From a virus, in the IMG/VR virus record IMGVR_UViG_3300034418_007766, positions 26,725 to 90,724 of that record: a DNA stretch of 64,000 nucleotides; one strand, 5' to 3'. The notes under the pieces were generated by a model that did no database searches, was not told the origin of the DNA, and was given only the letters and a program-made list of their open reading frames with translations. The translations under genes were made by a program, and so were the position numbers. Below are positions 100 through 62,557 of this stretch, piece by piece; positions within the stretch are counted from its first letter, which is position 1; the number at the start of each line of letters is the position of its first letter.

Positions 100-2352
100 T
101 CAAATTTCTTCACAGATGTGTGCATTGGTTTCCAGTTCAATTTTATCTGTATATTTAATTGTAATACTACCACCGTTTTTCAAATCGCCAAACAGTAATG
201 ATCTACTTAATGGGCGTTTTATTTCTTCGTCAATTACACGTTGTAAAGGTCTTGCACCCATTTTAGGATCAAATCCTTTATCTACCAAGTAATCTAATGC
301 TTCGTCAGTAACACAAATTTTCACATTTTTATTCTTAACTTGATCACGTAATTCGGCAAGGAACTTACCAACAATTTTCATCATTACTTCTTTGCCAAGT
401 TTAGCAAATGTAATTACACCGTCAAGTCTATTTCTAAATTCAGGCTTGAAGTATTCTTTCATGCTAGTATCTTCGTATTCTTTTGCAAGTGATTGTGTAA
501 ATCCAATATTATTTTTTTCTGCTTCTTGCGCACCCAAGTTTGTAGTTAGGATAAGCACACAATTACGTGCATCTGCTTCTTTACCATTGCTGCCTGTCAC
601 CATACCATTATCCATAAGTTGTAGCAACACTGCTGCAACGTCTGGGTGAGCTTTTTCAATTTCATCTAACAGCAATACACAGTTAGGATTTTCTTGTAAT
701 TTTACAATCAACTGTCCTGCATCATCTTCAAAGCCAACATAGCCTGGAGGTGCACCAATAAACTTAGCAACTGAATGTTTCTCTTGATATTCTGTCATAT
801 CAAATCGCACTAGTTGCACTCCAAGATGATGTGCTAATTGTTTAGCTGTTTCTGTTTTACCTGTGCCTGTTGGACCCATAAACACAAAACTGCCAATTGG
901 TTTATTGTCTGGTTTTAATCCAGCTTGTGCTACAAGTATTTTATCCACTAGACTTTCGATTGCTTTGTCTTGTCCAAAGATGCTACCCTTCATATTCTTT
1001 TCAAGATGTGCAAGATTTTCTGTTTCTCTTTCAGCAACTTGTTCTTCAGGTATTTTAACCATTTTAGCAAGTTCATATTGAATGTTTTCTTCTTTAATAA
1101 TCAGATTTTCAGTTTGATTTTTGACCTTAAATCTACTTGCAGCAACATCAATCAAATCAATTGCTTTGTCTGGTAATTTTTTATCTGGTTGATACTTTAC
1201 ACTTAATTTAACACTTGAGTTGATTGCTTCATCTGTAATTTGCACATTGTGAAATTCTTCGTAATATCCCTTAATACCATGTAAAATTTCAATTGTAGTT
1301 TCTTCACTTGGTTCATCAATGCTTACACGTTGAAATCTACGCATCAATGCACGATCTTTTTCAAAGTATTTTCTATACTCTTCCCAAGTTGTGCTTGCAA
1401 CTACTTTTAGGTTACCTTTGCTCAATGCTGGTTTTAACAAGTTAGCAAGATCGTTTGAACTATTACTGCCACCGGCGCCAGCACCTGAAATCATATGTGC
1501 TTCGTCAATGAACATAATGGTCTTGCCTTTCTTTTGTAAACCAGCAAGCACTAATTTAAAACGTTCTTCAAAGTCCCCGCGATATTTTGAACCTGCAAGC
1601 ATGGCTCCAATGTCTAGTGCATAAACATTATACTCTTTTAGAAAGTCTGGTGTTTGTCCATTTACAATTTTCCATGCGAGGCCTTCTGCAATAGCAGTTT
1701 TACCAACACCTGGATCGCCTACCATAAGCACATTACTTTTAGTTCTGCGACCTAGTGCAAGTGCAACCATATCTAATTCGTCATGTCTACCAATCACAGG
1801 ATCAATTTTACCTGCTTTCACATCTGCATTTAAATCATAAGTAAATTGTCTAATAGCTTGATTTGCAGCACCAGCATTTTCCTGACTTTCGTAATCTTCT
1901 TCAGCATTTTCCGAAATGTTTACATATGCTTGGTAGTCTGATTTTTGTATGTTGGCTTGCTGCGCTAAGAAATATGCATAACTGCGCTTTTCACCGAGTA
2001 TGCTTAAAAATACGTCAGAAATTTCAATCCTGTTTCTACCTTGGAATAAAACTTGTGCAAATGCTCTATTCAAAACACGCTCAACTGTTTGTGTTTTCTT
2101 TGGTTTCCATTTTTTAGAAACATCATTCAAATCAATTTTGATAGTATCCAATTTTGTTTTAAGATAGTTTTCAAGATTATGTTTTAACAGTTTACTATCA
2201 GCACCAAAGTCTTCCATGTGTTGCTGAAAGTTTTCTTCGCAAAGCATTGCATATGTCAAATGCTCAAGTGTCACGTATTCGTGATTTAACTTTTTTGCAT
2301 CATTCACTGCTTTGTCAAAAACTGCTTGTAATTCTGTGCTAGGTTCTACCAT
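100..2352 (-). CDS. clpA: ClpA-like AAA+ unfoldase (Clp ATPase)
   Basis: A 750-residue double-AAA+ Hsp100 protein, close to the length of bacterial ClpA. It has an N-terminal Clp repeat domain (about residues 1-145), a first ATPase domain with Walker A GDPGVGKT (212-219) and Walker B FIDEAHM, and a second with GPTGTGKTET and LLDEIEKAHPDV. A NNIGF segment in the second domain matches the IGL/IGF loop by which ClpA and ClpX dock on ClpP, so the protein could supply a phage-chosen substrate selector to host ClpP. No ClpP or ClpS gene is nearby. Its start overlaps the deformylase gene by 14 nt, and deformylase and DnaJ follow upstream, forming a proteostasis cluster. The family is certain; use of host ClpP is inference. 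Confidence 0.95.
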   Translation of the reverse strand: MVEPSTELQAVFDKAVNDAKKLNHEYVTLEHLTYAMLCEENFQQHMEDFGADSKLLKHNLENYLKTKLDTIKIDLNDVSKKWKPKKTQTVERVLNRAFAQVLFQGRNRIEISDVFLSILGEKRSYAYFLAQQANIQKSDYQAYVNISENAEEDYESQENAGAANQAIRQFTYDLNADVKAGKIDPVIGRHDELDMVALALGRRTKSNVLMVGDPGVGKTAIAEGLAWKIVNGQTPDFLKEYNVYALDIGAMLAGSKYRGDFEERFKLVLAGLQKKGKTIMFIDEAHMISGAGAGGSNSSNDLANLLKPALSKGNLKVVASTTWEEYRKYFEKDRALMRRFQRVSIDEPSEETTIEILHGIKGYYEEFHNVQITDEAINSSVKLSVKYQPDKKLPDKAIDLIDVAASRFKVKNQTENLIIKEENIQYELAKMVKIPEEQVAERETENLAHLEKNMKGSIFGQDKAIESLVDKILVAQAGLKPDNKPIGSFVFMGPTGTGKTETAKQLAHHLGVQLVRFDMTEYQEKHSVAKFIGAPPGYVGFEDDAGQLIVKLQENPNCVLLLDEIEKAHPDVAAVLLQLMDNGMVTGSNGKEADARNCVLILTTNLGAQEAEKNNIGFTQSLAKEYEDTSMKEYFKPEFRNRLDGVITFAKLGKEVMMKIVGKFLAELRDQVKNKNVKICVTDEALDYLVDKGFDPKMGARPLQRVIDEEIKRPLSRSLLFGDLKNGGSITIKYTDKIELETNAHICEEI

Positions 2353-2878
2353 TTCTGATTGCCTTTTTTATATCTTTAAGTCTTTTTTCTTCAGCTCTTT
2401 TTACTTTAAATTTACTAACTCTGTCAATAAATTGTATGCCATGCAAATGATCATATTCATGTAAAAAGATTCTTGCATCGATGTCATCAAGTTTCATCTC
2501 TACATTTATAACATCTTTATAGTCATTTGTCAAGGTATCAAATTCAACAATGCAACTAATTGGACGTCTTACTTTGATTATTAAACCCGGATGGCTTAAA
2601 CACCCTTCTGGACCTTGTTCAATTTCTTTACTTAGTCCTTTTATAATTGGATTCATAACAACCAAAGGGGAACCATATTTTTTATTTAGATATGTTTTCA
2701 TAACAAAAATTTGTGCAGGAAATCCAACTTGGTTTGCACTTAAACCTACCCCGCCATATTTGTTCATAACATCAATCATGTCTAAAGCGGTAGGAGCAGG
2801 GTGCCCAAAATAACTAGCTTCGAATTTATCCACTCCTTTTTCCAACATAGGATCAGGAGCCATTATTAAGTTCATCAT
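2339..2878 (-). CDS. def: Peptide deformylase
   Basis: A 179-residue metalloenzyme that removes the formyl group from the N-terminal methionine of new proteins. All three family motifs are present: GVGLSANQ (residues 43-50), EGCLS with the metal-ligand Cys93, and HEYDH (140-144) with the two His ligands and catalytic Glu. Length is typical of bacterial and phage enzymes. It overlaps dnaJ by 26 nt upstream and clpA by 14 nt downstream, so the three are probably co-translated. Peptide deformylases are known cargo of marine phages. The gene looks intact and functional. Confidence 0.95.
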   Translation of the reverse strand: MMNLIMAPDPMLEKGVDKFEASYFGHPAPTALDMIDVMNKYGGVGLSANQVGFPAQIFVMKTYLNKKYGSPLVVMNPIIKGLSKEIEQGPEGCLSHPGLIIKVRRPISCIVEFDTLTNDYKDVINVEMKLDDIDARIFLHEYDHLHGIQFIDRVSKFKVKRAEEKRLKDIKKAIRNGRT

Positions 2879-26698: not shown

Positions 26699-26998
26699 TT
26701 ATAATGCTGCTATTCGTGCTTGGAAGTCTGCAAAATCTGTTGCTGCTGCTACTTCTGTTTTGAGTGTTGCTAAACTTACATAACCCGGAATAACACCATT
26801 TACAGCATCTACTAATAATGTACTATCATCAGCAAACACACTGCCTTTGATATCTGTTACAACATTACCATCAGCTAATGCTGCAATATCAGTATATACT
26901 TCTGTAAAGTTTTCATTGACTTTGGTAAAGGCTACACGTAGTGGATCTCCGTCGCCGCTGTTATCATTTGTGCCTGTGTTTATAATTAACTGTGTCAT
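26699..26998 (-). CDS. Short fibre-family protein (99 aa)
   Basis: A 99-residue protein containing essentially the fibre N-terminal unit alone (INTGTNDNSGDGDPLRVAFT, KVNENFTEVYTDIAAL) plus a short beta tail (KGSVFADDSTLLVDAVNGVI). It shares 1 base with the 2307-residue fibre stop. It may be an adaptor that joins fibre parts, or the remnant of a fibre after its shaft moved elsewhere. Confidence 0.75.
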   Translation of the reverse strand: MTQLIINTGTNDNSGDGDPLRVAFTKVNENFTEVYTDIAALADGNVVTDIKGSVFADDSTLLVDAVNGVIPGYVSLATLKTEVAAATDFADFQARIAAL

Positions 26999-29900
26999 TA
27001 TACTCTCCCTACCACTACTTCAATTGTTCCGTAGCCATCATCCTGTTTGGATTGTAGTGCTTTACCAATGACTGTGCCCATTTTAGGATTGTTATCAACT
27101 ATTGCATAACCAGCTTTAGCTGCTGTAACAAGCAGGTCGCCTTTTTCCACCCGACCAAGCACTTTTGTAGGAACTCTACCTTGAAGTGCTACACCAACCA
27201 CATGTTCACCTTTAAGCTCACTGTTCATGATATGCGCTGGATTTGTAGTTACAACACCAGCTACTCTTCTGTCACCTTTGGTGTTTGTTGTAGTTACTTC
27301 TTCGTCACCGCCAAACACTAGAACTGTGCCTGGTTCATAGTCTGTATCGCCTTTGTAGTTTTCAGCTAAGTCAGCGTAAAGAGCTTTTGTAGCAACACCA
27401 GCAAATGTAGTTGCATACACTGTGTTGAATATATCACCTGAAGTGCCGATAGTCTGACCATTGTCAGCACCACTACCATTTCCTGGTCCTCTAAATCCGC
27501 CAGGCGCAGTGATAGTTGAGGCAGAGCCAGCTGTAATAGTGCCGCCTCCGCTGATTGCACCGCCTACTGTTAGTAAATTTGTGTTTGGATTGTATGTAAT
27601 ACCAGTATCGGTTCTAAGAGTTTCTGCTGTTGCAGAAGCATTGTTATCAGCAACAAAAGTCAAATATTGTGTGGAGTTGGCGCTGTTTGATATTGTTTTT
27701 ATTGTATCAGCACTATCTGCATTGCCTGTTAATTCGCCTGTGCTTACATCAAGTATTACATCTGTGCCATTGTATATATCACCGTCAACATTTGCTGATA
27801 TTTTGCTTGGTAAGCCAATAACAAATGTAACATTTCCTGTGCTTGGTTCTGTAGTTGTGATACTTACTTCATTGGCTGTGCCTTGTATTCTAACAGCATT
27901 TCCTAGTGGAACATCAACATTGGCAGTCCCATCTCCGACACTAATAGAGCTATTGGATAATTTTGCGTTGGTAATGCTACCTGCTAGTTCATCGTTTGAA
28001 ATGCCAAGTGCTTTAATTCTAACACGACCAGTTAGTGTAGCACTATCTAGTTCTACTTCAAAGTTTTCGTCACTGTAGATACTCATTCCAAGGGTGCTTT
28101 GGACAAAAGTTCCATTTCCCCAACCAGTTGATCCATCATCTTCATCAAATGTCGTTGCGGCTTGTAAAGAAAGTTTGCTTTGAGCTATTCCTGCTGTATT
28201 ACTTACATCGGCATTTTCAATAGCACCTGCATTTATCTGTCCTTCCATCAAGCCTGAAGTAGCATCAAATGTCATTGAAAAGTCACTGTTTGCAACATTT
28301 GTATCAAATCCTGTGTTTATCCATCCATCTGTAGCGTCTTTGTAAATTAAGAATTCGCCAGCAGCTGGTGATGAAATAGTGGTATCTTCTAACTCACTGA
28401 GTTCATCTTGATTTGCTAATCCAGTATCAACATAATCTTTTGTGACAGCATCACTCGGTGATGTAGGTGTCGCTAAGTCGATAATTTGATTATTACCCAT
28501 ACGCAAATTGCCTGCTAAAGGCAAAATACCACTCAGTGGCAAGAAACCACCTGTGGTTTGTGGAATTAATTCTGCACCAGCAAGTGCAGTGCCGTTTCGA
28601 TCCATACCCAAACGTCTGTCGATATAACCTTCAACTGCTGTTTCAACTGGCACTGCATCAGCAGTAGCATTTGTAAATGTATCATCAGCACTAAATTCGT
28701 TGACACGCACACCTCGTTTAAAGCCAATACCGTCAATGTTTGTAAGAACAAGTGCAGCGTTAAATGTAATACGTCCTGTGCCTTGGTCAACTGTAAAGAA
28801 TCTACCAACACGGAAGAAACCATCTTGGTCTGTTGAAGCAAAGAACACTCTACCTCTATTACGTTCTTGAACTTGCGCTTTGCTTGCAAAACCTTCACTG
28901 TCTAAACTTTCTTCATCGGTAACGGCTGCAATTTTTGGACCACCAAAAATTCTATCTGGATAGTTACTGGTATTGTAACCACCTGTTCCTATGTCTAGGA
29001 AGTCATGTGAAGTAGCACGACAAGTTGAAATGTTTACAGTAACACTACCTGATTCTGCTTCTTGTAAGCCTACTTGCAAAGTAATATTGTTACCAGCTGC
29101 ATTACTTGCTCTTGCAGCAAGTCCTGAGCCCACATAAGTATCACTGATATTATATTTGTCGCTAAAACTAATGATACCAAAATCTGTGCCTGTTCCGCTA
29201 TCTGTTACCACTTGATATCCTGTTATAACATGCACTTTGCCTTGCCATGCAAAAATCATATCAGCTGTAGCATCGTCACCAAGATTTATACGATTCTGAT
29301 CTGCTGCGCTCAATATTGTTGACACAGCAATGTGTTGGTCACCTTGTGTATCGCCTAGTGTAGTGCCGCCAGTTAGACTGTATGTTGCTGGTGATTGTCC
29401 AGCAAAATCATTACTTACAACCAAATCTATGTAATCAAAGTTATCATCAATGGTCACTCTTGTTTGAGCGCCAATTGCTGGAACACCAGCTGTTAGTGTG
29501 TTTTCAAATGCAAGTGTTCTATACGTTACAGTTTCCTGCTCATCAAAAATCAAAGCAGTTGATGGTCTTGTAAGTGTTGCACTTGTAATACCGTTTAATA
29601 TTATGTTTTGTTGACTTGTCAACACAGCATTTGTAGCGTGAGCTACGTTGAATTGCAAACCTGTTGTTTCTGTAGAAACTTCACCGCCTGTGCCTGATGT
29701 AAATTCTAATCTCCAAATCTTTTTACCAATTAATCCTGGAAAGGATCCAATATCGTCATCAATTGTTCCGTCTACATAATCTGATGGTATTTCTCTTCCA
29801 GTATCGCTTACGTTAATTACTTCATATGGCTGGAATGTTGTTTCACTATCATTATGGTGAATTTCAAGTTGAGAAGCGTTTAATGGATAATTAGTGGCAT

Positions 29901-32900
29901 CGTAAATAAATGCACGTTGCGCACCTTTTGTTCCACCAAAATCTCTATTAACCAAACTCACTGGAACACCATAACTTTGGTAAACTGTTCCGCTACCTCC
30001 GGCGTTTGTTCCTGTTGCGGTAAATGCTAAACCAATCGTATTACTTGCTGCACCGACAGTAGTCCAATCAGATCCGTTAATACTACCAATAACATATCTT
30101 GTAGTAGCAAGAAGACTACCATCATTTGTTACGCTATTAAGTGTAATTTCGTCTGTGTCATTGAATGCATAATCATATCTTGTGGTTGCAGATACGTGTC
30201 TATTCACACTGATAATACTATTTGTTGCATTATCATCGTTAAAAATTACATTTGCATTTGCAATATTACCTGTTACAGTATCATATTGACGTAAAATATC
30301 ACCTCTTGCAATACCCGAACTATTACCAGTGATTTCAACTTCTTGATCAACATTAAATATTTTTACAGGCTGTGTTAAGTCTTGACCAATTGTAACTAAT
30401 TTTGCAACTTCGTCTGGGTCGCTACCCTCAGCAACCATGCCGTAATTACCATAGCTGTTGTTACCTGTCAAACTACGTATTTGAGAACCATTGCTTGATA
30501 AGTAACCAGTATGACAATAATATGTAAACACCGACACAAGTTCTGAAAGTGCGTTGTTACGTGCTATAACACCATAACCTAAATCGTTAATTTGTGTATA
30601 GTCGTTTGCAAGCATGGATTTATTACCAGCACCTTGTAAAATAATTGGTATTGGGCCGCCGGCACTATCAGTTTCATCGTCTAGTCCATTGCCGCCATTT
30701 GCTCCTGCATCAAGCACTAGTGTAGCTGTTGCCTTGCCTGCACCGTTATCGGGCACATAATCAACAATAGCATTAACTTGATAGCGTCTACCAAATTCAA
30801 AGAAACTACACGGCACTGTTGGCTTTCTAAATCCAAGGATGCTTGTAGTAGGAGCTTCTACTTGAATTCTGAATGGATCGCTGTTGCCGCCCTGTATAAC
30901 AGTCATAGGAACATTATAGCAATAGCCATCTATAAACATGCCGCCTGCAAATATTTTTTGAGTAACACCGCTTTTTGCAAAGCTAGAGCAGGTTTGTGCG
31001 TAAGGAGATCGTGTAAAGATAGCACCTTCAGGGTCAAGCACCATCATAAAACCGCCTTGTCTTTGTGCTGTGACATTTCTAATAATGGTGTTATCGCTAC
31101 AAAGGAACATGTCCATTTGGTTATTATCTAATGGTGGATTATAACTTGCATCAAATGCATATGCAACAAAACTAACAAGTGCGCTTGCGTTTGTATTTGC
31201 ATTGGTTTCTGCTACTAAATTATTATTAGATACTCTGCCTGTGTCGCCGCCCGCACCGCCGTAAGCTGTTTGTGCCAACACACTGGTAATAATAGTAGCA
31301 ATATTGTTGATTGCTGCTTCTGTTTCAGTCTCCTGTCCGGGAACAACATTTGCAGCATAGGCTTTTTGGTTTATACCACTTTGTATTCTTCCGCCAGTTC
31401 TTAAATCAGATTCAATACCGTCAACAATATATCCAGTGTCTCTACGACATTTTGTTTCATTATAAACCAAAGCAGGATATGCATCATTGATAAAACTAAT
31501 GGTTCTATCAATAATAAATTGTCTGTTTAAACTAATCAAGTCAGCAGCTTCGCTAAACTTACCTGGATTTGTAGCACCAAAGCTACTGATATCCATTTCG
31601 CTAGTAGGATCGGTTAGATAATGCCTACCAAAATAGCCATCGGTGTCGCCAGTTAAATCATTTACATATGCTTCACCTGCTGTTGCAGTTGTGTTTCCGT
31701 CAATGGTAGCATCTCTATAGAAATATGTATTTGCTGCTGGTGACAAACTCATGCCTGCTGCTGGTCGAATAATTACACGTCTAAATTCATCACCTTTGAT
31801 ACTTACGTTAGGTGGTAATCTAATTGGAAGTTGTTCTTCGTATACTCCAGTTTCGATTCTAATACTAATTTGCTGTTTCTTAACAAACGCACCATATTCA
31901 ATTTCTTCTTCGTCATCGAACTCAATAGGCAATAACAACTTTAATGAAATTGTGTCGTGTGTTGGAAAGCCATTTGCACTGTCGTCGATACCACGAGTAT
32001 AATCTTCTATAAATCCTACTGCACCAGAACGTTTACCTCTAACAATTTTGCCAGGAAAAATATCTGTATTTGGTTCATCTTCAGCTGGATCTCCTGCTTG
32101 TGTTAGGAATTTATTATTTCCGCTATACACATATAATTTGTAGTTGTTGCTTGCTTCAACAAATGCAGGGTCTGCTGTTGCAGTGTTAATTGTGTCTAAA
32201 ACATCATCAAATCTAGCTGCTGCGGTTAGATACCAAACGTTTCCTGTAGCACTGCCACCTAGAGCTGTGTTTACTGCTGCAAGCATGGTTACTTTTGCAA
32301 ATTGAAGTGCGCTGACAGTTTCTGTGTATTGTCCGCCGCCACCGGTATCAATTGCAATTTCGCCACTTGCGTTAGAGAAATATCTAAGTCCAGCGTAAAC
32401 ACTTAGGTAATTATGTTTGATACTACTAGTGCTTGCAAGAATATCAAGTCTGATACTTTGGTGTATCAGGGCTAAATCTCGTCTACAAATAGATTCATCG
32501 TAAACAAAATTAGGAAATGTTGATTCTATATGAGCAACAGTTTGATCGATTACACTTTGTAAATTAGCAGTGAATGCGGCTGCTACTGTAGCAGCATCTG
32601 CGGTAGAAGCTGTATATCCAGTGTTTAAATAATTTGTTACATATCCTGGATTTGTTCCTGTGCCGTCTGTAAATTGTAGAGTCTGAACATAAGGTCCAAC
32701 ATCAGGCATTGCAGCTTCTTGTAGTCTTGCTGCTCTTGCACATGCTGCTGCAATAGTTCTATAGGCATATTTTTCACTACGTCCTGCTCTACCAGGAGGT
32801 GTTTGTGATTGTGTATCATCGCCTGAAATGTTTACATATATGTTTTCGCTTAAACTATATTGTTGGGCATCAACATAATATTTTGTTGCTGCTTGTAGAT

Positions 32901-33921
32901 CGTCTTCTGAAGTTGGAGTTCCTGCACCTTGGAACGGCGAGGGATGATCGTGCAATGTAAGTGCACCAGTCATGGTATCGCCTTCTCTACGGACTATACT
33001 TTTTCTTGGAAGTATTGCATTGCCTTTCCAAAATCCTGACAAAGCACCATCACTATCGTCCCAGTTTGCATCCTTGAATGTTTGCGAGCCTGTTCCGCCG
33101 GTAGCAATAATCTGGTTTGTGTTGTTTAATGCATCGTTAGCAGTTGGGTGAATAGTAACTTGATTAGAAGTAGATCTACGCAAATAATAAGTATCACCAC
33201 TTGTAAGATTGGTTGCATCAGTTCCATCTGAATTATATAACCATGGACTACCTGTTACTGCTTCAGTCCATCCATGGGACACAATATTAGCTGCTCCATT
33301 AGTATAGCTTGCAATAGTTTTGGTATAATCTGCTGCATCAACTGGCTCATCTGCTACTGTAGGGCCAACTCCAAAATGATTGCGTGGAACATATTTTCTG
33401 TCAGCCAACCCAACACTTGGAACAACATGATCAATGTCAACATCTGGATCATGCACGGTATTCCAGCTGTCAACAAGTTGCTGGCGAGTAGCATCTCCTA
33501 GTATTAGTGGGTGTGTAGTATCACTGTAAGCAATAGCTGCACCCATTTTCAATGGAGATGAAATAGTAGGACTATTGTCAGTTTCGATGTTTACGTTTAT
33601 AACACGTAATTTGAGTTGATTGCCTTCAACAGTGAATGCAATTGTATTATCAGGATCATTAGGATCAGCATTGTTAGCATCAGAAACTAGGTCGTAAAAA
33701 TCAATACCAGTTCCAGCTTGATTGACTAATAAAACTTTACCTTCGTTTCCAACTGTGCTATTTGGTGTATCGTTAAGTGTGGTGAAACTAATTTGTCCAC
33801 CTAATCCAAAAACAGCATAGAGTTCATTAAAATTTTCGTTTACCTTTTTGAAGGATTCACGGATACTATCGCCTGTGCCGTCATTACCCTCTACACCAAT
33901 ATCTACTTCTTGTTTAGCCAT
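26998..33921 (-). CDS. Giant tail fibre protein (2307 aa)
   Basis: A 2307-residue protein, the largest gene here. It opens with the fibre unit VDIGVEGNDGTGDSIRESFK, KVNENFNELY. Long beta-rich, Asp/Gly/Asn/Thr-rich stretches and several mixed helical sections follow (SICRRDLALIHQSIRLDIL and a second copy, ETKCRRDTGYIVDGIESDL). The C-terminus (ADLAENYKGDTDYEPGTVLV, GDRRVAGVVTTNPAHIMN, EVVVGRV) resembles the intramolecular-chaperone or G2-like tip found in marine phage fibres. The duplicated CRRD segments mark an internal repeat. It probably forms the long tail fibre that binds the host. Confidence 0.85.
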   Translation of the reverse strand: MAKQEVDIGVEGNDGTGDSIRESFKKVNENFNELYAVFGLGGQISFTTLNDTPNSTVGNEGKVLLVNQAGTGIDFYDLVSDANNADPNDPDNTIAFTVEGNQLKLRVINVNIETDNSPTISSPLKMGAAIAYSDTTHPLILGDATRQQLVDSWNTVHDPDVDIDHVVPSVGLADRKYVPRNHFGVGPTVADEPVDAADYTKTIASYTNGAANIVSHGWTEAVTGSPWLYNSDGTDATNLTSGDTYYLRRSTSNQVTIHPTANDALNNTNQIIATGGTGSQTFKDANWDDSDGALSGFWKGNAILPRKSIVRREGDTMTGALTLHDHPSPFQGAGTPTSEDDLQAATKYYVDAQQYSLSENIYVNISGDDTQSQTPPGRAGRSEKYAYRTIAAACARAARLQEAAMPDVGPYVQTLQFTDGTGTNPGYVTNYLNTGYTASTADAATVAAAFTANLQSVIDQTVAHIESTFPNFVYDESICRRDLALIHQSIRLDILASTSSIKHNYLSVYAGLRYFSNASGEIAIDTGGGGQYTETVSALQFAKVTMLAAVNTALGGSATGNVWYLTAAARFDDVLDTINTATADPAFVEASNNYKLYVYSGNNKFLTQAGDPAEDEPNTDIFPGKIVRGKRSGAVGFIEDYTRGIDDSANGFPTHDTISLKLLLPIEFDDEEEIEYGAFVKKQQISIRIETGVYEEQLPIRLPPNVSIKGDEFRRVIIRPAAGMSLSPAANTYFYRDATIDGNTTATAGEAYVNDLTGDTDGYFGRHYLTDPTSEMDISSFGATNPGKFSEAADLISLNRQFIIDRTISFINDAYPALVYNETKCRRDTGYIVDGIESDLRTGGRIQSGINQKAYAANVVPGQETETEAAINNIATIITSVLAQTAYGGAGGDTGRVSNNNLVAETNANTNASALVSFVAYAFDASYNPPLDNNQMDMFLCSDNTIIRNVTAQRQGGFMMVLDPEGAIFTRSPYAQTCSSFAKSGVTQKIFAGGMFIDGYCYNVPMTVIQGGNSDPFRIQVEAPTTSILGFRKPTVPCSFFEFGRRYQVNAIVDYVPDNGAGKATATLVLDAGANGGNGLDDETDSAGGPIPIILQGAGNKSMLANDYTQINDLGYGVIARNNALSELVSVFTYYCHTGYLSSNGSQIRSLTGNNSYGNYGMVAEGSDPDEVAKLVTIGQDLTQPVKIFNVDQEVEITGNSSGIARGDILRQYDTVTGNIANANVIFNDDNATNSIISVNRHVSATTRYDYAFNDTDEITLNSVTNDGSLLATTRYVIGSINGSDWTTVGAASNTIGLAFTATGTNAGGSGTVYQSYGVPVSLVNRDFGGTKGAQRAFIYDATNYPLNASQLEIHHNDSETTFQPYEVINVSDTGREIPSDYVDGTIDDDIGSFPGLIGKKIWRLEFTSGTGGEVSTETTGLQFNVAHATNAVLTSQQNIILNGITSATLTRPSTALIFDEQETVTYRTLAFENTLTAGVPAIGAQTRVTIDDNFDYIDLVVSNDFAGQSPATYSLTGGTTLGDTQGDQHIAVSTILSAADQNRINLGDDATADMIFAWQGKVHVITGYQVVTDSGTGTDFGIISFSDKYNISDTYVGSGLAARASNAAGNNITLQVGLQEAESGSVTVNISTCRATSHDFLDIGTGGYNTSNYPDRIFGGPKIAAVTDEESLDSEGFASKAQVQERNRGRVFFASTDQDGFFRVGRFFTVDQGTGRITFNAALVLTNIDGIGFKRGVRVNEFSADDTFTNATADAVPVETAVEGYIDRRLGMDRNGTALAGAELIPQTTGGFLPLSGILPLAGNLRMGNNQIIDLATPTSPSDAVTKDYVDTGLANQDELSELEDTTISSPAAGEFLIYKDATDGWINTGFDTNVANSDFSMTFDATSGLMEGQINAGAIENADVSNTAGIAQSKLSLQAATTFDEDDGSTGWGNGTFVQSTLGMSIYSDENFEVELDSATLTGRVRIKALGISNDELAGSITNAKLSNSSISVGDGTANVDVPLGNAVRIQGTANEVSITTTEPSTGNVTFVIGLPSKISANVDGDIYNGTDVILDVSTGELTGNADSADTIKTISNSANSTQYLTFVADNNASATAETLRTDTGITYNPNTNLLTVGGAISGGGTITAGSASTITAPGGFRGPGNGSGADNGQTIGTSGDIFNTVYATTFAGVATKALYADLAENYKGDTDYEPGTVLVFGGDEEVTTTNTKGDRRVAGVVTTNPAHIMNSELKGEHVVGVALQGRVPTKVLGRVEKGDLLVTAAKAGYAIVDNNPKMGTVIGKALQSKQDDGYGTIEVVVGRV

Positions 33922-56918: not shown

Positions 56919-56944
56919 GTTTGTAGCAGAGCGTGAGGGCGCAC

Positions 56945-57223
56945 ATGGATTTTTTAACACTAGTAGGTGATGTAGGGTTTCCAATAGCAGGAGCATTAGC
57001 AGCAGGTGGCTTTGTTTTCCTAACATTGAAGTTTATTTTAGCAGGTGTTACTGGAGGAGTAACTACTCTAAAAAACATAATCGGACAATTAGACAACAGA
57101 GTTCAAACCATGAACAACGATCTAGTTAAGATCGATGCTTTGTTGAGCTATACATTAAACATTAGACCTAACGTAGATAGGTTAGCAGCAAATGAAGGAA
57201 AAGAAGATGCCAGACGTGATTGA
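56945..57223 (+). CDS. Small membrane protein, YvrJ/holin-like family A (92 aa)
   Basis: A 92-residue protein read from ATG at 56945, 6 nt after GAGGG. One membrane helix (VGFPIAGALAAGGFVFLTL) is followed by GVTGGVTTLKNIIGQLDNRV, QTMNNDLVKIDALLSYTL. The protein at 57402 shares the same GFPI...helix...L-x-x-L-x-x-R-V-x-x-x-N-D layout, so they are paralogues. Such small proteins occur in several marine phages and could be holins, but the evidence is only topology. Confidence 0.65.
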   Translation: MDFLTLVGDVGFPIAGALAAGGFVFLTLKFILAGVTGGVTTLKNIIGQLDNRVQTMNNDLVKIDALLSYTLNIRPNVDRLAANEGKEDARRD

Positions 57224-57401: not shown

Positions 57402-57749
57402 ATGGATATTGCTGCCGCAGTAAGTGAATATGGTTTTCCAATCATTGCCGCAATGGGCATGGGATATTTCATTTATTTTATTTGGAAATGGGTGACTGAA
57501 ACTATTGATCCTGTTATAGGAGAAACCATGGGCACACTAATTAAATTGGTTGATCGTGTGCGTATGTTAGACAATGACATGATCAGACTAAACCAAAAAC
57601 TATCAATGGTTTTAGAATATAGGGCAAAATTAAATCCACAGAGGCAAGACGAATTACAACGTCTAGTGGATGAATATAAATCTGCTAATAAGCAGTTTGA
57701 TAGCACAGGAGGGAAAAAAGATGTTCCAAAAGGGGATGCCGATAGCTGA
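57402..57749 (+). CDS. Small membrane protein, paralogue of the 92-residue gene (115 aa)
   Basis: A 115-residue protein with an N-terminal membrane helix (YGFPIIAAMGMGYFIYFIWK) and a charged coiled-coil-like part (TLIKLVDRVRMLDNDMIRLN, LQRLVDEYKSANKQ). It parallels the protein at 56945 in arrangement and motifs. Its start follows the preceding stop directly. The C-terminal tail GGKKDVPKGDADS is disordered. Confidence 0.65.
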   Translation: MDIAAAVSEYGFPIIAAMGMGYFIYFIWKWVTETIDPVIGETMGTLIKLVDRVRMLDNDMIRLNQKLSMVLEYRAKLNPQRQDELQRLVDEYKSANKQFDSTGGKKDVPKGDADS

Positions 57750-58491: not shown

Positions 58492-58855
58492 GTTACTATT
58501 TTTCTTTGCCTTAATAATAAAACATGCCTTTGCTGATTTGTTTTTACAAACATATATTAAAAAACCACATAGCAAAATAAGATACTTTGACAACGGACAC
58601 AGACACTATGCACACCACGCTGGTGTAAACTTTGTAGTATGTTTATTTTTTGTATCACCTGCTTGGGCAGTGATCTATAGTTTGTTTGATTACATAATAC
58701 ATTGGCATGTTGATTGGGGCAAAACTGTATTTTATACAAAGTTCAATTGGAAACGTGACGAAGGTAGATTTTGGCGATTACAAGCATTAGACCAAGCACT
58801 ACATTACACTACTGCTTTCTTGATTGTGTTACACTCTCATATGTTTGTTTTATAA
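58484..58855 (+). CDS. DUF3307-like membrane protein (123 aa)
   Basis: A 123-residue protein read from ATG at 58484 with GCAAGG upstream. It has three or four hydrophobic segments and conserved-looking polar residues: KHAFADLFLQ, HRHYAHHAGVNF, DYIIHWHVDWGK and LDQALHYTTAF, matching the His/Asp/Gln pattern of DUF3307 proteins, whose function is unknown. It converges with the alpha/beta hydrolase gene and overlaps it by 47 nt. Confidence 0.7.
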   Translation: MTELLFFFALIIKHAFADLFLQTYIKKPHSKIRYFDNGHRHYAHHAGVNFVVCLFFVSPAWAVIYSLFDYIIHWHVDWGKTVFYTKFNWKRDEGRFWRLQALDQALHYTTAFLIVLHSHMFVL

Positions 58856-59471
58856 TATCGCCAACTTTATCACTTACCATGGTTTCATAATGTGTATTTG
58901 CAACATCTACATGCTTCATGTCTGTTCTGTGACGCATTGATTCAAGTGTGCAAACGCCATCGTTAGGTCCATTGTGATAAGGCACAGAACCTGTAGTGCT
59001 TACAATTTGTGTCCAAGGGATATTCAATTCAATTTCATTTGCTCTACGTATAGGATCTGCTCTGCGTCCTATATCTTTAAACAGTGGATAGCTTGGAACA
59101 ATATACTTTGCCCAGTCTGCTGTGCTGCTGCCACGGAAAGGTGTGCTTATACTTACACCTCCCAGCACTCTAACATACTGTGTAAGATGTAGTGCATACA
59201 AACCGCCCATGCTGTGTCCTATAACAAAGTGTGGGCCTTTGCCTTTGCATTTATCCGCAATCATTTCTATGTTATCTTCAAATCTATTCATGCTAGAATA
59301 GTTTACTAATATCTCATTTGAAAACTGTGTTTTTGTTTGCAGGTATTTAAAACTCAATGAAGTTTGGTTCGCACCATGTATCCAAATAACATTAATGTCA
59401 TCTGTCGTGCGTTTTTCATAGGTTCGACGCAAACCAAACCAATTATAAAAGTATTCTCTTATAGGCTGCAT
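58809..59471 (-). CDS. Alpha/beta hydrolase (lipase/esterase-like)
   Basis: A 220-residue alpha/beta hydrolase. The nucleophile elbow is IGHSMGGLYA (GxSxG, Ser in GHSMG), the oxyanion region is WIHGANQTS, and candidate Asp and His are in GPNDGVCTLES and ANTHYETMVS. No signal peptide. It could act on lipids or acyl esters; phage function unknown. It lies 4 nt after the cyclase stop and converges with the DUF3307-like gene. Confidence 0.8.
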   Translation of the reverse strand: MQPIREYFYNWFGLRRTYEKRTTDDINVIWIHGANQTSLSFKYLQTKTQFSNEILVNYSSMNRFEDNIEMIADKCKGKGPHFVIGHSMGGLYALHLTQYVRVLGGVSISTPFRGSSTADWAKYIVPSYPLFKDIGRRADPIRRANEIELNIPWTQIVSTTGSVPYHNGPNDGVCTLESMRHRTDMKHVDVANTHYETMVSDKVGDIIKQTYESVTQSRKQ

Positions 59472-59475
59472 ACAA

Positions 59476-61521
59476 TTATTTAGTTTGCGCTATGAAGGTG
59501 CCGTTCCAATCTTGTGGCAACTCTTGTGTTTTCATATATTCACAACGTTCCATCCACATTTTGTAGTAGCCTGTCATTTTAAAATCAAAACAATTTGCTA
59601 ATGCTGCGCTCATTCTATATGCTTCGTCAAAGTTTTGTGCTTTATATGCTTTCATCATTTTTACATGTCTGTCTTGATCTTTTTTCCAAGCATGTTGTGG
59701 ATTATCTAACACAGTGTAAATGCTGAGTCCTACACTCTTACCTTTAACTTGTAAGTCGTCTACTTTTAGATAGAAGAAATCGTCCTTTGTTTGTTCGTAT
59801 GTGGCTTCTCCAACAAGAAGTAAGCATCCATATTCTTTACATTTTGATTCGACTCTAGCTGCTGTTGAAACAGCATCTCCAAGCACATCATAACTGTGAC
59901 GCATAGTGCTGCCCATTTCTCCCAAATAACCAAGTCCTGTATTAATACCAGCACCCATACCAACAGGTGGCCTGCCTTCTGGAATAATAACTTCTTCATT
60001 GAACTTCTCTACTGCTTGCAACATATCTAGTCCACACTGCACGGCTGATCTAGCATGATTAGGATCATCAATGGGTGCGTTGTGTATGTGCATACTAGCA
60101 TCACCGATATACTTGATTATCATTCCGTCTGCGTTTAGCACAGGCTGCGTAATGGCATCCATATAGCCATTCATTATGCGAGTGAGTCCTTGCACGTCAT
60201 CGCCAAAAGATTCACCTAATGGTGTAAAGCCACGCAAGTCTGAGAATACTATACTAACTTCTCGCTTGGTGCCTTTTTTGATTAGGTCTGGATTTTCTTG
60301 TAATAGTCTAACCACAGTAGGAGATGCATATCCTGCAAACTGTTTTTTAATTGCTTGCTTTTGTAAAAATTCATCTAAGAATTTAAGTATGTAACGCTTG
60401 AGTCCTACTAGCAATAAAAATGCTGCTGGTGTAAATCCGTCGACGAGCATTCCGTATTGATTAAAGGCGTAGTAACTTATACTAATGCTACCACCAACTG
60501 CAATCACAAAAAAGGCTATACCTAAATACGTCCATCGTGCGCCTAAAATAAGAATTATACCAGCAGCAACAAAGAATGCAAGTTCACCCCATATTTCGGC
60601 ATCAGAATGTCTTGCAATGTTTGATTCGTTAAATACTGTTCCAAGCATTGTTGCTTGTATTTCATGTGGGAATACTGAACCTGCTGCTGTTGCTAAAGGC
60701 TGTGTTACACCTGCTGCGGTTGGTCCTACAAATACTATACCACCTCCAAAGTCGTCTGGCAATTCTACTGCACTATATGACTTTGATTTTTGACTCCAGT
60801 CTATCCATACTTCACCTGTTGGGCTTGTTTGTATAACACCAAACTGCGGTATGCGTAACTTGTCAACTCCAAGTGGAGATAGCTTAATTTGGAAACTCGG
60901 ATCTCCTGCTAATACCCTTAGCACTTCCATTGTAACATTTGGATATAACACCCCTCCACTTTCTACTACAAGTGGTATGCGTCTAGTAACACCGTCTATT
61001 TCTGGCCATGAATTTGTAAGGCCTGATCCAACTGCTGAATTTTCAATATCAGGGACGTTGGCAATGATTCCTGGAACACTAGGAATAGTGTGAAGGTAAT
61101 CACTGTTAACGATAGTAGCACCAGGATTAATTGGTTCATTTTTATTCTCCTCCGCACCCAGCATTGTGACTATAACTGGTAGGTCATTCATTATCAGGGC
61201 AAGTGTAAAATCCTCGCCCTGACGATCTGTTTCAGACATCAACACATTGAATACAACTAGTCCAGCGCCTCTGGCATAAATTTCCTCTATAAGGCTACCA
61301 TAATCACCTCTCGGCCACGGCCATTGTCCGTATGCCTCTAAACTTGGCTCATCAATATTCACTGTGTAAATGTTGTTTTCAATTGGCTCTTGATTGACAA
61401 TAAGTGAGTCAAAGTATCGTAATTTGAGACTTTCTAAAAACGGAGGGTTGATATACATAATCCAGGCTAGAATACCTAAAACTATCATGCTCCAAAGCGG
61501 CGAAAACAATACTTTTCTCAT
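59476..61521 (-). CDS. CHASE2-domain class III adenylate/guanylate cyclase
   Basis: A 681-residue membrane receptor cyclase. An N-terminal helix (MIVLGILAWIMYINPPF) precedes a CHASE2 sensor (NIDEPSLEAYGQWPWPRGDY; ARGAGLVVFNVLMSETDR), then three helices (WGELAFFVAAGIILILGARW; LGIAFFVIAVGGSISISYYA; FTPAAFLLLVGLKRY) and a class III catalytic domain: FSDLRGFTPLGE (metal Asp), IKYIGDASMHIH (second Asp), SYDVLGDAVSTAARVES. Both metal aspartates and the transition-state Asn/Arg region seem present, so it should make a cyclic nucleotide. Such proteins are typical of bacteria, not phages. It overlaps the 108-residue gene by 4 nt. Confidence 0.93.
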   Translation of the reverse strand: MRKVLFSPLWSMIVLGILAWIMYINPPFLESLKLRYFDSLIVNQEPIENNIYTVNIDEPSLEAYGQWPWPRGDYGSLIEEIYARGAGLVVFNVLMSETDRQGEDFTLALIMNDLPVIVTMLGAEENKNEPINPGATIVNSDYLHTIPSVPGIIANVPDIENSAVGSGLTNSWPEIDGVTRRIPLVVESGGVLYPNVTMEVLRVLAGDPSFQIKLSPLGVDKLRIPQFGVIQTSPTGEVWIDWSQKSKSYSAVELPDDFGGGIVFVGPTAAGVTQPLATAAGSVFPHEIQATMLGTVFNESNIARHSDAEIWGELAFFVAAGIILILGARWTYLGIAFFVIAVGGSISISYYAFNQYGMLVDGFTPAAFLLLVGLKRYILKFLDEFLQKQAIKKQFAGYASPTVVRLLQENPDLIKKGTKREVSIVFSDLRGFTPLGESFGDDVQGLTRIMNGYMDAITQPVLNADGMIIKYIGDASMHIHNAPIDDPNHARSAVQCGLDMLQAVEKFNEEVIIPEGRPPVGMGAGINTGLGYLGEMGSTMRHSYDVLGDAVSTAARVESKCKEYGCLLLVGEATYEQTKDDFFYLKVDDLQVKGKSVGLSIYTVLDNPQHAWKKDQDRHVKMMKAYKAQNFDEAYRMSAALANCFDFKMTGYYKMWMERCEYMKTQELPQDWNGTFIAQTK

Positions 61522-61844
61522 TTTTTCTTTCCCATTAGTTTTGCTCGCATTGCATCTAGCTCTGCTGTTTTTGCTGCTTTTGCTATTGCGGCTTGATCGG
61601 GCGAGGTCGATAGTTTGGATTCTTCACTCCCCGTTCGTACTCTACTACTGGATTGTAGTTTGTGTTGTTCTTCTTTCGAAACCCTTGATGTTTTATTATC
61701 AAGGGTTTCTCTGACTCGGGCAATTCTTGCTTTGTGTTCTTGTTGGCGCTGGTGAAGGTAGGTTTCAAGCAATTTCTCCTGAAACTTTTCCTCCACCATA
61801 TTTTCTATATGCTCTTTGAACAACCATTCGCTTATCCATTTCAT
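61518..61844 (-). CDS. Basic coiled-coil protein (108 aa)
   Basis: A 108-residue basic, helical protein (EKFQEKLLETYLHQRQQEHK; KAAKTAELDAMRAKLMGKKK) with a central Ser/Arg-rich section (SRVSKEEQHKLQSSSRVRTG). No domain recognised. A late box ends 4 nt before its ATG, and its stop overlaps the cyclase start, so this gene leads the cyclase operon. Confidence 0.6.
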   Translation of the reverse strand: MKWISEWLFKEHIENMVEEKFQEKLLETYLHQRQQEHKARIARVRETLDNKTSRVSKEEQHKLQSSSRVRTGSEESKLSTSPDQAAIAKAAKTAELDAMRAKLMGKKK

Positions 61845-61848
61845 ATAG

Positions 61849-61856
61849 TATTTATT
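61849..61856 (-). promoter_or_regulatory. Late box AATAAATA abutting a start codon
   Basis: AATAAATA on the minus strand with a 4-nt gap (CTAT) to the ATG of the 108-residue gene and the cyclase operon behind it. Confidence 0.5.
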
Positions 61857-62074
61857 TAATGATCGTATACGTAAGGCCCGTCTTGCACTTTTACAGGCTT
61901 ACAATAAGCAGTTATTCTATGTTCCTTGGGTACTAGATACTTTGATCCGTAGTTTCCGTACTGTCTTGGTATACGTTTTGCATAGTATTGACAAACGTCT
62001 ATACTTCTAAAATACATAGGCGACGGTTGTTGTGCGTCTGCTATTAACACTACTAGCATAAATGCGTGTATCAA
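61856..62074 (-). CDS. Small exported protein (72 aa)
   Basis: A 72-residue protein with a short hydrophobic start (MIHAFMLVVLIADAQQ), probably a signal peptide, then two cysteines (DVCQYYAKR, AYCKPVKV). The likely start is TTG at 62074, directly after the upstream stop and with AAGGAA upstream. Its stop overlaps the late box of the cyclase operon. Unknown function; possibly periplasmic partner of the cyclase sensor. Confidence 0.55.
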   Translation of the reverse strand: MIHAFMLVVLIADAQQPSPMYFRSIDVCQYYAKRIPRQYGNYGSKYLVPKEHRITAYCKPVKVQDGPYVYDH

Positions 62075-62557
62075 TTATACTATTCCTTTGGCTTTTAGAA
62101 TAAAATAAAATATTCCACCAAGCATACTAGTCAATGCTCCTAGTAATAAAGTAATAGCAACACCATTTATTAATGCTTGTTTTGCTTCTGCTTGTCTGTA
62201 TACTTCTCGTTCACGTTGAGCTCTAATTTTACGTTGCATTTCTTTTAGCTCGTCCCAAGTTCCAAATCCAAAACGAAAGTTAAGTAATTCTCGTAGTTCC
62301 ATTTCCATTTCCATAATCTTCTTTTCGTGAATAAGGAGATTAAGTGCTTCTTCTTCAACTGAACCTGCTGCTAATAGTTTTCTAAATATTGGAGGTTTCT
62401 TTTGCATCTGCTGACCTTTACGGAAATCAGATACACTAGTGTACCACTTGCCCATTTGGCCCATAACATTTTCGAATTCTTGACCAGCGTGTACGAATTT
62501 CTTAACGGTATTAAATGCCGTAGTTGCTGCTGCAACGGCTGTGAATGGATCTATCAA
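62075..62557 (-). CDS. Phage protein with C-terminal membrane helix (160 aa)
   Basis: A 160-residue protein with a long charged helical middle (LIHEKKIMEMEMELRELLNF, KEMQRKIRAQREREVYRQAE) and a C-terminal membrane helix (GVAITLLLGALTSMLGGIFY). It begins MIDPFTAVAAATTAFNTVKK, of a type I recall in phage structural regions. Unknown function. It precedes the exported protein directly. Confidence 0.6.
   Translation of the reverse strand: MIDPFTAVAAATTAFNTVKKFVHAGQEFENVMGQMGKWYTSVSDFRKGQQMQKKPPIFRKLLAAGSVEEEALNLLIHEKKIMEMEMELRELLNFRFGFGTWDELKEMQRKIRAQREREVYRQAEAKQALINGVAITLLLGALTSMLGGIFYFILKAKGIV

Follow-up and report, generated by a model that had tools for sequence, protein, structure and literature searches.

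A phage-borne CHASE2 receptor cyclase of class III, which closes a curli-type operon in related phages and is a candidate sensor of the infected cell's envelope

The window analysed here is a stretch of 64,000 nucleotides of marine phage DNA (positions 26,725 to 90,724) of the IMG/VR virus record IMGVR_UViG_3300034418_007766, which is 90,724 bases long and ends at the right edge of the window. Its minus strand carries a frameshift-free open reading frame with an ATG start, coding for a protein of 681 aa in which a CHASE2 sensor domain is followed by a class III nucleotide cyclase domain (Table 1). Genes for a clamp loader, a baseplate lysozyme-like protein, tail-fibre proteins and an exonuclease as well as eight tRNAs are located elsewhere in the window. 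A predicted tail-fibre protein of 2307 aa (PHROG 9851) is encoded at 26998-33921 (minus strand). An ATP-dependent protease-like gene (PHROG 4871) is found at 100-2878 (minus strand), with a peptide deformylase gene adjoining it.

Table 1 Features of the cyclase locus (positions in the window)
Feature	Position	Strand	Basis
Alpha/beta-hydrolase-like protein, GHSMGG motif, 4 nt past the cyclase	58809..59471	-	Abhydrolase_6, E 9e-6
CHASE2 - class III nucleotide cyclase gene, 681 aa	59476..61521	-	ORF call, Pfam, PHROG 35576, AlphaFold2 model
Class III cyclase catalytic domain, aa 417-596	59734..60273	-	PF00211, Foldseek
S552 codon, usual transition-state asparagine site of class III cyclases	59866..59868	-	Residue comparison of relatives
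D474 codon, second metal-binding aspartate	60100..60102	-	Asp in all 38 phage and all 38 bacterial relatives compared
D428 codon, first metal-binding aspartate	60238..60240	-	Asp in all 38 phage and all 38 bacterial relatives compared
Periplasmic CHASE2 sensor (aa 18-327), including its flanking membrane helix	60541..61470	-	Pfam PF05226, model
108-aa ORF, overlapping the cyclase start by 4 nt (ATGA)	61518..61844	-	ORF call; conserved in part of the family
AATAAATA, best match to a T4-type late-promoter-like box, 12 nt ahead of the start codon (ATG) of the 108-aa ORF	61849..61856	-	Motif match
72-aa ORF, TTG start, small predicted operon gene	61856..62074	-	ORF call; relative in L028
160-aa ORF, PHROG 32327 (unknown function), C-terminal hydrophobic stretch	62075..62557	-	ORF call, PHROG
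Outer-membrane protein, C-terminal part, cut by the contig end	62616..63998	-	Alignment A3, model of the L016 relative, Foldseek

The sensor domain matches PF05226 (CHASE2) with an E-value of 3.1e-33 and 115.9 bits (cut-off 26.3), and the catalytic domain matches PF00211 (Guanylate_cyc) with an E-value of 6.4e-18 and 65.4 bits (cut-off 21.9). PHROG 35576 covers aa 1-661 of the protein (E 6.9e-166). The AlphaFold2 model has a mean pLDDT of 88.4 and predicts helices at residues 8-24, 306-327, 331-356 and 363-395, a mixed alpha/beta periplasmic domain at about 25-304 and a cyclase core at 418-605, followed by a short helical tail. In Foldseek comparisons the core resembles CyaB (3r5g, TMt 0.88), CyaC (1wc0, TMt 0.85) and Cya2, with values ranging from 0.82 to 0.88. 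By Pfam and model the protein thus has the layout of a CHASE2 receptor, i.e. an N-terminal helix, CHASE2, three more membrane helices and an output domain, and homology in sequence and fold (PF00211, Foldseek) places the latter among the class III nucleotide cyclases. The earlier note, made from the sequence alone, had described such a bacterial-type receptor, and Pfam, AlphaFold2 and Foldseek agree with it; its three helices are correct for the part C-terminal of CHASE2, but not for the whole protein, which has a fourth helix at the N-terminus. The dN/dS ratio of the gene is about 0.04-0.12 in close pairs with unsaturated dS, indicating a maintained gene instead of a chance open reading frame.

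Both metal-binding aspartates claimed in the earlier note are present, as D428 and D474, and are invariant across the 76 sequences compared (38 phage and 38 bacterial). The positions of the ATP-specifying Lys and Asp/Thr are occupied by K470 and D545, the standard ATP-specifying pair of class III cyclases. Residue 545 is Asp in 36 of the 38 phage proteins, and Ser or Thr in 37 of the 38 bacterial ones, with Asn in one. The transition-state arginine is present as the invariant R556. The transition-state asparagine, which is usual but not strictly defining for the class, is absent from the window protein and replaced by Ser552. A missing catalytic residue had been named beforehand as an argument against the cyclase reading; the metal ligands are in place, and the gap concerns this asparagine. 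Serine occupies position 552 in 36/38 phage copies, while all 38 bacterial CHASE2 cyclases have Asn; the bacterial active-site pattern is kept by phage HTVC008M and by locus L068. The DNA pattern for GD[AS]VSTAAR was found in 55 of 151 loci compared, all of them phage, and in 0/385 alphaproteobacterial genomes, in a search for the exact pattern that close variants would escape.

As judged from these residues, the exchange of Asn for Ser could lower or abolish catalysis. The Ser552 proteins of the main clade might then be weakened or dead enzymes, acting as ligand-controlled scaffolds or as low-output cyclases, and the occurrence of the serine and its surrounding motif in phage copies, but not in the bacterial sequences compared, is consistent with this explanation. 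However, none of the other catalytic residues, Arg556 among them, varies, and purifying selection on the domain is strong. Rv1900c is active with His at the same site, and several established cyclases lack the asparagine (PMC4886424); Ser552 is therefore no proof of inactivity. In PMC2447327 no text on the catalytic Asn was found. We consider a weakened or dead enzyme rather improbable. A Ser-for-Asn cyclase constitutes a natural variant for enzymology.

The contig ends inside the outer-membrane protein gene upstream of the cyclase, and the order of the genes beyond it is read from relatives. Of the related loci with enough upstream DNA, 45/45 have csgF-csgG-curlin-FecR upstream of the cyclase on the same strand, a count that allows for loci whose stored stretch starts inside the operon. 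A second curlin gene (curlin-2) is usual and the outer-membrane protein is frequent in these operons; the identities of FecR, CsgG and CsgF are supported by Pfam. In HTVC008M and in phage Melnitz the order is csgF, csgG, curlin repeat, FecR, curlin repeat and cyclase, with the cyclase last. Because the contig ends within it, the curli/FecR operon was missed in the earlier note. The lineage of the window is distinguished by the outer-membrane protein gene and small open reading frames inserted before the cyclase and by the alpha/beta-hydrolase-like gene after it, which adjoins the cyclase in many relatives from one part of the phage family.

Full-length relatives of the outer-membrane protein carry a signal peptide, and their C-terminal part is predicted to form a beta-barrel (alignment and model of the L016 relative). 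The barrel of the L016 relative was matched to the autotransporter NalP (1uyo) with a TMt of 0.69. Outside the barrel the model is weak (mean pLDDT 64), and the protein is therefore designated autotransporter-like as a prediction.

Two paralogous small membrane/coiled-coil proteins (PHROG 18771) are encoded on the plus strand at 56933-57223 and 57402-57749, and a relative of this PHROG is located directly 5' of csgF in Melnitz. A 'histidine kinase' upstream of phage csgF has been reported in the literature. Neither the small genes before csgF nor the PHROG 18771 pair gave a Pfam match to a kinase domain.

In the earlier note the cyclase had been described as part of an operon behind a late box. 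A box of this type is indeed present, but it precedes the 108-aa ORF and not the ATG of the cyclase directly. NATAAATA occurs 15 times on the minus strand of the window and 0 times on the plus strand, and the box at 61849-61856 is one of these copies. Within the family, the box is located a short distance before 9/27 distinct csgF starts and before 9/38 starts of the cyclase (chance 0.6%), and also before 4/11 starts of the 108-aa ORF and 5/30 curlin-1 starts. None was found upstream of the csgG, FecR, curlin-2, outer-membrane protein or hydrolase starts of the family. Counts of the exact TATAAATA in the window show no enrichment (6 copies, compared to 7.6 expected), nor do those of a loose TAAATA, and the late-type boxes become visible only through strand and position relative to gene starts. 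Late transcription of the operon is supported by these sequence features. Several boxes of the family begin 11-13 nt before an ATG, and such transcripts would have almost no leader.

The phage context, also claimed beforehand, has been confirmed. The independent contig L001 matches the window with 1 mismatch in the 12,522 bases compared, and the neighbouring genes are the same in dozens of phage contigs. A search of IMG/VR yielded 61 loci or contigs with relatives of 52-100% identity, while a near-DNA search of the phage collection gave no useful match. Among isolated phages, relatives are present in four Melnitz isolates (OM43 host) and in HTVC008M (Pelagibacter host), where they carry cyclase annotations. 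Phylogeny of the two domains, a check proposed with the original claim, groups the phage sequences together with SH-aLRT values of 100 for CHASE2 and 79 for the cyclase domain, in quick trees with some long branches.

An assembly chimera or bacterial contamination would be in line with the contig end 2.5 kb upstream of the gene and with the presence of certain related loci in contigs binned with bacterial metagenome-assembled genomes (MAGs). The agreement with L001, the same phage gene order in the MAG contigs L065-L067 and, decisively, the presence of the gene in complete genomes of isolated phages speak against it. A chimeric join near the gene is ruled out on these grounds, leaving this explanation with next to no probability. 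The window cyclase is a real, maintained phage-borne gene, the identity and context of which are secure. Phage curli/FecR/cyclase genes were observed in species-representative bacterial MAGs, namely in L065 and L066 (Rhodobacteraceae) and L067 (Pirellulales); these, and possibly L068 (Flavobacteriaceae), look like phage contigs binned with bacteria. A csgG relative is also found in the 1.5-kb phage record OR851715.1 (Salmonella phage S.Kent 1-2-1, 1,499 bases), where it is probably host DNA in the deposit.

Comparison of the two domains with the window protein yielded different identity values. For Melnitz they are 33% in CHASE2 and 83% in the cyclase domain, and the corresponding values are 33 and 87% for L060, 53 and 90% for L054, and 33 and 38% for HTVC008M. 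L055 and L033 show the reverse pattern (88% in CHASE2, 58% in the cyclase domain). On average, conservation is highest in the cyclase domain (77%, compared to 66% for CHASE2). Nucleotide identity jumps from about 0.40-0.47 to 0.72-0.80 near residues 370-381, where the membrane helices end. As a consequence of this mosaic the two trees disagree. Melnitz, HTVC008M, L060, L067 and L068 form a clade separate from the remaining 33 phage sequences in the CHASE2 tree, whereas in the cyclase tree Melnitz, L060 and L067 fall within the main clade, with HTVC008M and L068 branching outside it. A stronger constraint acting on the cyclase only would not account for the pattern of L055 and L033. Recombination between phages at the junction of sensor and output domain is the simplest reading of these alignments.

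In bacteria, CHASE2 lies near FecR more often than expected at random. Of 31 bacterial genomes examined, 27 were drawn evenly from the class of genome G002 and four were obtained via related loci; 20 of their 77 CHASE2 genes are located within 5 kb of a FecR gene, compared to 0.8 expected, although this is only about a quarter of the sampled genes. No CsgG was found near CHASE2 in the same sampled bacteria, and the pairing with curli therefore looks phage-specific. A biofilm operon of Burkholderia combines FecR-LysM with a CHASE2-kinase (PMC5192318), and MtxA is followed by a CHASE2 cyclase in another case (PMC4439547). This distribution suggests that CHASE2 receptors may watch the export of surface proteins, and that phages may have joined the module to a curli pore. 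Co-evolution of FecR and CHASE2 was rejected, as no co-variation beyond the operon background was observed (partial correlation 0.20, compared to 0.18 for the cyclase). Annotation by eye places bacterial CHASE2 cyclases at the end of a two-partner secretion operon with FhaC-like, FecR and large haemagglutinin-like genes (L075) and of an operon with repeat adhesin, ABC exporter and HlyD-like genes (L073), which points to a broader connection of CHASE2 with export.

Taken together, the reading that we favour, and hold to be somewhat more probable than all others combined, is that of a late phage receptor cyclase making cAMP as a sensor of the envelope or of fibre export. The cyclase would be the last core gene of a late operon building a curli-type (type VIII) secretion pore, to which the operon would add curlin-repeat proteins of amyloid-like surface fibres, a periplasmic FecR and, in the lineage of the window, the predicted autotransporter-like outer-membrane protein. 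The receptor would reside in the inner membrane as a dimer. Its periplasmic CHASE2 domain could sense the condition of the envelope or of the machinery exporting the fibres, probably via FecR, and the membrane helices would relay this to the class III domain in the cytoplasm. This membrane sensor probably makes cAMP, given its ATP-specifying residues; the cAMP formed from ATP would act on host cAMP receptors late in infection, and an alteration of host cAMP signalling by the phage cyclase is plausible. This reading is weakened by Ser552, by the lack of a recognisable cAMP-binding domain in 15 phage records, by the missing extra co-variation of FecR with CHASE2, by the distance between these two in most of the sampled bacterial genes and by the absence of CsgG near CHASE2 in the same bacteria. 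A 16S probe for SAR11 genomes gave 0/58 matches, for which a fault of the probe or missing 16S genes may be responsible.

Another explanation is a plain host-takeover enzyme, the cAMP of which shifts host metabolism or expression, with the curli genes being neighbours merely through a shared late transcription slot. The intact ATP-specifying and metal residues, the higher conservation of the cyclase domain and the late-type box of its own at some of the cyclase starts are compatible with it. A constitutive enzyme, however, would have no use for a periplasmic sensor that is kept conserved by purifying selection (dN/dS about 0.1). The order csgG-curlin-FecR ... cyclase in every locus that could be scored and the independent occurrence of FecR-CHASE2 proximity in bacteria argue in the same direction, and we regard host takeover alone as unlikely, though deserving consideration.

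Production of another cyclic nucleotide, or of cAMP as a decoy, which disturbs host defence of e.g. the Pycsar type, would agree with a class III cyclase in a phage whose active site is altered compared to all sampled bacterial relatives. This is opposed by the ATP-type residues and by the neighbouring genes, which belong to envelope and export and not to defence or counter-defence. In addition, no PF00027 cNMP-binding domain was found in the 90.7-kb record or in 14 related phage records. Interference with defence is accordingly given a very low probability, and a Pycsar-like system was rejected as no PF00027 effector was found in these 15 records.

Beyond the favoured sensor reading, the phages may possess a transmembrane pathway of their own, in which CHASE2 and FecR monitor phage-built fibre export with cAMP as output, and a common, phage-specific cyclase with an altered active site receives different sensor halves by exchange between phages. 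We put this forward tentatively and with some doubt. The association of CHASE2 with FecR raises a testable question, namely whether a phage perceives the envelope of the cell it has infected and responds by making cAMP. Very abundant marine bacteria (SAR11 and OM43) are the hosts of the isolated phages that carry the cyclase.

Two articles deal with curli genes of phages, those of Wittmers et al. 2022 (PMC9599517) and Buchholz et al. 2022 (PMC9004378). The former describes curli (T8SS) clusters of podo- and myophages that include FecR and an adenylate cyclase, proposes an alphaproteobacterial origin with subsequent transfer between phages, and names aggregation, superinfection defence or uptake as possible roles (PMC9599517). 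The latter proposes a lysis pore role for phage CsgG, and a search of it for cyclase or FecR gave no matches (PMC9004378). The two articles thus assign different functions to the phage curli genes, aggregation fibres (PMC9599517) and a lysis pore (PMC9004378), and the sensor is left unexplained by both. With such cyclases published in 2022 and the HTVC008M and Melnitz relatives already annotated as cyclases, the window gene belongs to an already known kind, and the suggestion that phage genes of this kind were unreported is not supported. A search of PMC9599517 for CHASE2 gave no matches. Four points appear to be undescribed, namely the CHASE2 identity, the domain swapping, the phage-specific active site and the autotransporter-like partner; no earlier reports of them were found in the searchable literature, the scope of which leaves out most subscription journals.

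Among known systems, the clusters of PMC9599517 match the operon seen in the relatives and include the cyclase family of HTVC008M, with acquisition by phages and exchange between them already proposed; in its accessible text they are presented without the Ser-for-Asn site, the swapping of sensor and cyclase or the autotransporter-like outer-membrane protein. Bacterial CHASE2 adenylate cyclases (e.g. L071, L075, L122) have the same domain order and are often located near FecR genes. They differ in an identity of at most 45% in the cyclase domain and in keeping the Asn (38/38 sampled), and none of the sample lies in a csgG operon. The Burkholderia operon (PMC5192318) shares the periplasmic FecR and the CHASE2 receptor with the lineage of the window, but it is bacterial, its output is a histidine kinase and no curli genes are described in it. 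Among the phages, HTVC008M gp019 (YP_007517885.1) is also a CHASE2 cyclase (33% identity by tblastn) and is encoded at the end of a csgF-csgG-curlin-FecR operon, with TATAAATA 13 nt before csgF. Its cyclase domain is only 38% identical to that of the window protein and conforms to the bacterial type, with Ser in the second specificity position and the Asn retained; a C-terminal tail is absent. The Melnitz cyclase (MZ577095, QZI94387.1) is a full-length homologue with 49% identity (tblastn), which is encoded at the end of its operon and shares the Ser variant in the cyclase domain. It is distinguishable from the window protein by its CHASE2 half, which is 33% identical with a sharp step near residues 370-381, and by the absence of the outer-membrane protein and hydrolase neighbours that characterise the lineage of the window.
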